From NCBI GenBank assembly GCA_027295405.1, contig JAPUKZ010000307.1, positions 1-42,051 of the forward strand: DNA of 42,051 bases, read 5' to 3'. Positions 30,910 to 35,322 of this stretch are shown here, one piece after another (within the stretch, counting starts at the first letter, position 1; the number at the start of each line of letters is the position of its first letter). The position numbers and the translations under genes were made by a program. The notes under the pieces are model-generated. The model was given only the letters and a program-made list of their open reading frames with translations. It did not search any database and was not told where the DNA came from. This DNA comes from Gammaproteobacteria bacterium. GTDB taxonomy: Bacteria; Pseudomonadota; Gammaproteobacteria; Pseudomonadales; Halieaceae.

Positions 30910-31042
30910 TCAAATTATTTTTTTATGTCTATGGATGTTTTTTATATGAAAAAGGAATAAACACCACGGGCAAGCCAGTTCGCAGCGACCAACGCGTGCA
31001 GCAAACGGGAACAAAGTGGGAGAGAGGGGACGCGTAAAGAAA

Positions 31043-31383
31043 GTGGAGTTGGCCGATAAGCCGGGTTCTGTCGTGGACGATCATTCATCTGCGACGAACG
31101 TCACCGTCCGCCTGTAGCAACCTACCCGAATCCACTGCGGGCCGCAGCCATGGATTCCTATTTGGTCTTGCTCCGAGTGGGGGTTTACCGTCGCCACGCC
31201 TGTTACCAGCCGCGCGGTGCGCTCTTACCGCACCTTTTCACCCTTACCCGACGAATCGGGCGGTATCCTTTCTGCTGCACTTTCCGTAGGCTCACGCCCC
31301 CCAGGTGTTACCTGGCACCCTGCCCTGCGGAGCCCGGACTTTCCTCCCGTTACGAATAACAAGCGATCGCCTGGCCAACTCCG
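31043..31383 (-). ncRNA. rnpB: RNase P RNA (type A)
   Basis: Minus strand GGAGTTGGCCAGGCGATCGC…GAGGAAAGTCCGGGCTCC…GGGTGCCAGGTAAC…CGGTAAACCCC…AGATGAATGATCGTC…ACAGAACCCGGCTTATCGGCCAACTCC. Ends approximate. Confidence 0.95.
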
Positions 31384-34168: not shown

Positions 34169-34525
34169 ATGAACAAGGGCCAATACTACGAGGAACACGC
34201 TGTAGACTACCTGCTGAAAGCGGGCCTAAAACTGCTGGAGCGAAATTTCCGCTGCAAGGCCGGTGAAATTGACATCATTTGCAGCCAGGGGCAACAACTG
34301 GTTTTTGTGGAGGTTCGCTATCGCAGCAATCGCAACTTTGGGTCGGCAGCGGCATCCGTGGACCGCAATAAGCAGCGCAAAATTATCCGGGCAGCACAGT
34401 TTTACCTGCAGAGCAGGCCGCGGTTTCACGATCGACCCTGCCGCTTTGATGTGTTGGCAATCACGCCGATCCAGTCGACTGCTGAAGTTGAGTTACAATG
34501 GCTGAAAAGCGCATTTATTGGCTAG
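34169..34525 (+). CDS. yraN: YraN family endonuclease-like protein
   Basis: YYEEHAVDYLLKAGLKLLERNFRCKAGEIDIIC…VFVEVRYRSN; ATG at 34169 preceded by gggaggt. Confidence 0.93.
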   Translation: MNKGQYYEEHAVDYLLKAGLKLLERNFRCKAGEIDIICSQGQQLVFVEVRYRSNRNFGSAAASVDRNKQRKIIRAAQFYLQSRPRFHDRPCRFDVLAITPIQSTAEVELQWLKSAFIG

Positions 34526-34530
34526 CGTAG

Positions 34531-34713
34531 TGTAACCTATAAAGTGTACATTCAGAGCCCTCCAATTCGTCCGCTGCAAGTGCGGCGGCACTCCGACGCA
34601 GTTCGCAGGGAATGTAGGTCACCTTGCCAAGAGCTGCACCAACAGAAGGCGCTCTTAGGCGACGCGGCAGCAGGCGAACTGGGAGGCTCTGAATGTACAC
34701 TTTATAGGTTACA
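34531..34713. mobile_element. MITE-like element with 29-bp perfect terminal inverted repeats
   Basis: Left TGTAACCTATAAAGTGTACATTCAGAGCC (34531-34559), right GGCTCTGAATGTACACTTTATAGGTTACA (34685-34713); nested inverted repeats CAGTTCGC/GCGAACTG and AAGAGC/GCTCTT; no credible transposase ORF. Confidence 0.72.
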
Positions 34714-34725
34714 GTACACCAGAAT

Positions 34726-35322
34726 ATGGATAATTATCAGGCCATCGCAGGTGGCTTCCAGGAAACCGTTGAACTGATTACGGTCTCAGTCGACGCATTG
34801 GTGGATCACCTTCAGCGTGCCAGCGATGTCTGTATAGAGGCGCTGCTGCAGGAAAAAAAGATACTCGCCTGCGGCAACGGCAGCGGTGGCGCGGTGGCCC
34901 AGATATTCAGCACCAACCTGTTGCACCGCTTTGAGCATGAGCGACCCTCCCTGCCAGCACTGTCTCTCGGCACCGACAGTGCCACCCTGTCCGCCATCGC
35001 TACTTCATCAGCCAGTAACGAGTTGTACTCCAAACAAGTTCGCGCCCTGGGGCAGCCTGGAGACGTACTGCTGGCGGTAGCGGGGGTGGAAAATAACGGC
35101 AGTATCATCCAGGCCATTCGCGCCGCCCATGACCGGAATATGCTGGTCATCGTTCTCAGCGGTGGCGCTTGTGGCGACATTTCCAGTCTGCTGTTACCGG
35201 AGGACGTCGAATTACACATTCCCAGCACCCGGGCACCACGAATTATTGAAATGCAGACCATGATCGTTCACTGTCTGAGCGAACTCATCGACCAATCACT
35301 TTTTGGCAGTTACAGCCCATGA
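34726..35322 (+). CDS. diaA: SIS-domain DnaA initiator-associating protein DiaA (GmhA-like)
   Basis: KILACGNGSGGAVAQIFSTNLLHRFEHERPSLPALSLGTD…IPSTRAPRIIEMQTMIVHCLSELID, same pattern as E. coli DiaA. Confidence 0.9.
   Translation: MDNYQAIAGGFQETVELITVSVDALVDHLQRASDVCIEALLQEKKILACGNGSGGAVAQIFSTNLLHRFEHERPSLPALSLGTDSATLSAIATSSASNELYSKQVRALGQPGDVLLAVAGVENNGSIIQAIRAAHDRNMLVIVLSGGACGDISSLLLPEDVELHIPSTRAPRIIEMQTMIVHCLSELIDQSLFGSYSP

Follow-up and report, generated by a model that had tools for sequence, protein, structure and literature searches.

What is the palindrome that fills the spacer between yraN and diaA in the 42,051-nucleotide stretch of DNA analysed here (the window), and how did it come to lie there? 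A sequence-only reading had left three options, namely a non-autonomous transposon, a REP/RAYT-like unit or a folded regulatory RNA, between which its boundaries, copies and flanks can be used to choose.

Boundaries and genomic context

Each 29-bp arm is the exact reverse complement of the other, as the sequence-only reading had described. The arm has no match elsewhere in the window, even when 3 mismatches are allowed, and no chance counterpart of the pair arose in 100 shuffles. The nested pair at 34599-34606/34674-34681 was also confirmed, and the palindrome does start 5 bp past the yraN stop codon and stop 12 bp ahead of the diaA ATG. The unit nevertheless proved larger than the interval 34531-34713 initially proposed: its arms extend outward imperfectly (86% over 56 nt), and alignment with other copies placed its ends at CTAG and CCAG (Table 1). 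With its perfect 29-bp TIRs and no gene, this 201-bp element corresponds to the short, non-coding, TIR-bounded format of bacterial MITEs. The left CTAG provides the TAG stop codon of yraN, and the TA within it is presumed to be a 2-bp target duplication, the right copy of which has likely decayed to CA. The GTA on each side, previously considered as a possible target duplication, belongs to the inverted repeat itself (GTGTAC...GTACAC).

Table 1. Coordinates of the element, its parts and the neighbouring genes in the window.
Feature	Position	Strand	Basis
Complete 201-bp insertion unit with its two flanking target copies, CTAG...CCAG	34522..34722	.	Alignment with other copies
Element proper, if TA is duplicated	34525-34719		TA-duplication model
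Left target copy, CTAG	34522..34525	+	
Right target copy, decayed to CCAG	34719..34722	+	
Left perfect 29-bp inverted-repeat arm	34531..34559	+	
Right perfect 29-bp inverted-repeat arm	34685..34713	-	
Micro-insert T2, GTGCGGCGGCACTCC (boundary ambiguous by 1-2 nt)	34580..34594	+	Sister elements G001 C57 and G087 C82 lack these 15 nt
Micro-insert T1, CCAACAGAAGGCGCTCTTAGGCG, 23 nt, between A34638 and A34662	34639..34661	+	Filled/empty alignment; copies elsewhere
yraN (UPF0102), upstream neighbour	34169..34525	+	Pfam PF02021, 105.6 bits
diaA (SIS domain), downstream neighbour	34726..35322	+	Pfam PF13580, 73.1 bits

In the nearest relative (G006), the TGA of yraN is followed by CTC (3 nt) and then by the diaA ATG. 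Among the relatives where the gene pair was identified, the spacer ranges from 3 nt to a few tens, against 200 nt here, and the element was found in none of the relatives read at this position. Its right end lies 3 nt upstream of the diaA ATG, and removing it in silico together with one target copy leaves TAG-AAT-ATG, again a 3-nt spacer. The short spacer of the relatives thus identifies the window copy as a lineage-specific insertion into the CTAG ending yraN, and such a presence/absence difference at an orthologous locus is what is expected of a MITE.

Both strands were predicted to fold far below shuffled sequences (-102 kcal/mol, z -10.2; -106 kcal/mol, z -12.0), and this very stable fold, located between two co-directional genes, would also suit an RNA regulator or attenuator fixed in the yraN-diaA operon. 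However, copies occur at many unrelated loci, the relatives' spacer is short and lacks the element, a pattern scan of the element detected no promoter or terminator, and an Rfam search of the window and the element returned no match besides RNase P. We regard a conserved regulatory element as refuted, an operon-specific RNA being highly improbable, and a secondary effect on diaA as possible. The element parts two genes that nearly abut in the closest relative and places a long hairpin ahead of diaA; by analogy with Correia elements (PMC10969869), this hairpin would plausibly weaken coupled translation or offer an RNase III substrate. The window also carries a class A RNase P RNA gene at 31041-31382 (-) (322 bits).

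Dispersed copies, target site and a candidate transposase

Searching the genome of origin with the 183-bp palindrome recovered one full-length copy (C307, 90% identical) and nine further loci, several of them truncated, and the same ends or core were found at about 20 loci. Together with further copies present in other genera, these form a set of dispersed copies with conserved ends, as in MITEs. A single copy conserved in all relatives, which the sequence-only reading had named as the outcome that would speak against mobility, is not what was found.

These copies terminate farther out than the TIRs first described, at (C)TAGTGTAC...GTACACTA(G), and differ in their outer arms, which are of type A in the window, C307, C433, C414 and C200, of type B (GTGTACCTCGTCACTCATATTGTAACATTCAG) in C43, C121, C430, C2, C470 and others, and of type C in C224. 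Type-B ends occupy 18 places in the genome of origin (none for the reversed control) and have a patchy distribution, occurring in 5 of the 140 genomes of the family. Elements sharing the same plan, with CTAGT ends and other arms, were found in distant Gammaproteobacteria. In G356, a distant gammaproteobacterial genome, 61 related ends were counted, paired ends spanning 247-314 bp; contigs there often break off within the element, as expected when copies are nearly identical. An autonomous copy sought through paired ends was not found, all pairs enclosing elements of 37-314 bp only.

Within a complete copy, the outer 36-nt arms resemble each other (mean match 0.87) more than do left arms taken from different elements (mean 0.65). 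The arms also co-vary, with TGTAACC in both arms of the window copy and TGTAACG in both arms of C433. Imperfect palindromes are known to mutate by template switching from one arm to the other (PMC7202029), and arm-to-arm copying of this kind is the likely source of the resemblance within elements.

Several small elements were also observed. A 37-bp palindrome (CTAGTACTCCGTCA...TGATGGAGTACTAA; L002) adjoins the C307 copy on its left, and the ends of this palindrome resemble those of distant elements in G356 and G224. A 37-39-bp element (L059, C3:6776) consists of the two outer type-B ends alone and is located at the stop codon closing a >380-codon ORF; 53-bp versions of this type occur in G022 and G085.

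Flanks were compared in 30 complete elements from several genomes. CTAG was found on the left in 21, on the right in 21 and on both sides in 15. In the window itself, CTAG occurs 24 times against 153 expected from base composition, a roughly sixfold deficit. Directly inside, all 30 elements have a G at the left end and a C at the right end, and no direct repeat of at least 3 bp was found outside CTAG. Members of the IS630 family are described as targeting and duplicating TA (PMC2170065), with a preference of IS630 itself for TA lying within CTAG (Tenzen and Ohtsubo 1991, cited therein); the CTAG flanks were identified here independently of this preference. The 15 elements with CTAG on both sides, together with one CTGG/CTGG pair, would fit equally well a MITE of another DDE family (IS5-like) generating a 4-bp CTAG duplication. 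Yet the inner G/C is invariant while the outer C/G varies, as expected if TA alone is the target, and the sole IS found with such ends belongs to the IS630 family, leaving an IS5-like origin improbable. None of the relatives examined offered an orthologous empty site with its CTAG intact, so that TA and CTAG duplications are not directly separable. A preference for stop codons was considered and rejected, since the CTAG target accounts for the figures (12/30 ends versus 12/46 background CTAGs).

Among seven genomes with elements or core searched for Pfam DDE_3, only G087, a member of the same family that also carries the MITE, was positive. It harbours a 1,160-bp IS630-family IS, in which an imperfect 33-bp TIR starting CTAGTGTAGGTCGTCA flanks a 365-aa ORF with matches to the NCBIfam IS630 transposase (289 bits, cut-off 100) and to DDE_3. 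The type-B MITE end, the most frequent one, agrees with the right end of this IS at 25/32 positions, a score equalled by none of 10,000 shuffles; the type-A ends of the window agree at 16-19/32 (0.3-2% of shuffles as good). A candidate autonomous partner with matching ends, as expected of MITEs, is present in a relative, the match being weaker for the type-A ends. No DDE_3 transposase was detected in the genome of origin (assembly 88% complete) or in G022 and G085, both of which have many copies; its absence from the genome of origin may reflect a real loss or the incomplete assembly. The transposase of the G087 IS, or a lost relative, would have moved the window copy.

Mobilisation by a Y1 tyrosine transposase, as for REP/RAYT repeats, was weighed against these data: Y1-transposase genes occur in the genome of origin and its relatives, and most copies have GTAG in their inner block. 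The Y1 loci, however, show no significant match to the element on their flanks, and the elements bear IS630-like TIRs and CTAG flanks, making this second option of the sequence-only reading a very poor candidate.

Its first option, a non-autonomous transposon, is borne out by the multiple copies, the lineage-specific insertion, the conserved ends and the relative's IS with matching ends; what that reading missed were the true ends, the link to IS630 and the nested 23-nt insert. With a probability of roughly 85%, the 201-bp unit is a MITE inserted at CTAG with duplication of TA, most likely mobilised by an IS630/Tc1-mariner-type transposase. Such a transposase would be supplied in trans by a full-length related IS and would recognise the ends C-TA-GTGTAC...GTACAC-TA-G before cut-and-paste of the element, which would have inserted at the CTAG closing yraN and duplicated TA. 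Micro-inserts T1 (23 nt) and T2 (15 nt) would have been gained in the inner hairpin ahead of the family's expansion in the genome of origin. The element is a lineage-specific MITE, probably of IS630 type, ordinary in kind and unusual in its modularity.

Inner modules and nested micro-inserts

Sister elements in G022 and G087 have one or two inner hairpin modules within the same outer arms, a variation that indicates an architecture made of an outer stem with exchangeable inner hairpins. This modular, coordinately changing palindrome would be a natural record of IS630-type mobilisation combined with arm-to-arm copying. Alignment of the window copy with these elements revealed the clean gap corresponding to T1. 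For the second micro-insert, T2, the window element shows a gap of 15 nt and C470 shows gaps of 15 and 23 nt, which define a unit of 15-23 nt terminating in GCGGCATTCCGA.

T1 follows the pattern (A)CCAA[C/A]AGTAGGCGC-n3-5-AGGCG(A), with the site consensus GCA^A[C/G]G. Near-identical blocks were found in 20 of 369 gammaproteobacterial genomes, including the genome of origin; outside this class, one family of the same phylum has them in eight genomes, with a weak match in one more. Named records comprise marine gammaproteobacterial and Mariprofundaceae MAGs. Exact-pattern counts reached 44 (G424) and 36 (G356), the reversed control pattern remaining at 0 throughout. Altogether, T1 occupies 49 distinct contexts in Gammaproteobacteria and one non-gamma family. 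Among 45 distinct contexts, its flanks are A on the left in 43 and A on the right in 44; position -2 is C in 34 of them, and position +3 is G in 33. No T1 was found in phages, and searches of plasmids and viral contigs gave one weak match and one occurrence, respectively. In an IMG/VR contig (L267, position 2074, minus strand), T1 splits the hairpin repeat ATTCCCACGCAGGAG|CGTGGGAACG and is bordered there by G|C and not by A|A. A preference for hairpin loops was not convincing (11/49 sites in a loop versus 143/870 control positions), and no longer version carrying a gene was seen among the loci examined.

Many T1 copies sit inside larger repeats and some outside. Since most of them lie within repeat families (G356, G424 and G408), T1 might not be an insertion unit itself and might be dispersed solely as a constant component of larger palindromic repeats. 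This is unlikely in view of the group IIC intron (L126) and the ISCR-type transposase gene (L122) that T1 interrupts, each with an exact 22-nt gap relative to uninterrupted plasmid homologues. A third, probable case is an integrase gene (tyrosine recombinase, L206), which regains its frame once T1 is deleted in silico and for which the DNA alignment is weaker. An adaptor artefact was considered unlikely, given that T1 has diverged variants, recurs at one position across several copies of a family and is present in a two-contig genome (G408).

Tentatively, and at slightly less than even odds, we propose that T1 is a 22-23-nt micro-insertion at A/A, with neither duplication nor loss of the target, spread through Gammaproteobacteria and at least one further proteobacterial family and far below the size of any recognised transposable element; T2 may act likewise. 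If true, this 22-nt block, cleanly inserted into a ribozyme intron, a transposase gene and other repeats, would be smaller than any dispersed insertion we know of and would imply a hitherto undescribed insertion activity. Neither the letters of T1 nor a description of it was found in the literature searched, the coverage of which excludes most subscription papers. The filled/empty pairs make the micro-insertion reading directly testable, and the nested T1 carries more weight than the MITE itself.

Other loci display further arrangements. One palindrome (L191, G424 C107) has inverted T1 in both arms, with only the middle 4-5 nt differing, which suggests arm-to-arm copying. A unit of roughly 46 nt (CGACTCCATGGATGGAGGAGGTAGAGCAACGCAGGAGC...; L263, G764) lacks T1 and, a similar unit with T1 being present in other genomes, represents a further empty site. 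The point at which T1 inserts (GCTGCA|) is exactly where two shortened copies in the genome of origin, C433 (L006) and C59 (L007), start to diverge.

Comparison with known systems

The element resembles the IS630/Tc1-mariner group (IS630, ISY100) in its presumed TA target, its apparent CTAG preference and, in the IS of a family relative, similar terminal repeats, but it has no transposase, measures about 200 bp and has arms that vary by copy. Its resemblance to the Correia repeat enclosed elements (NEMIS) of Neisseria is general only: these are also non-coding palindromic MITEs of about 100-200 bp in many copies, gene-adjacent and forming a hairpin in mRNA (PMC10969869), whereas the present element has other hosts and inner modules and holds T1 and T2. 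REP/RAYT repeats are likewise dispersed palindromic units of Gammaproteobacteria, from which these elements differ in not being associated with Y1 genes. Finally, ERIC, RUP and Rickettsia palindromic elements are small dispersed palindromic repeats, some of them within genes, but all are much longer than T1, which at 22-23 nt shifts the frame of the genes it enters.
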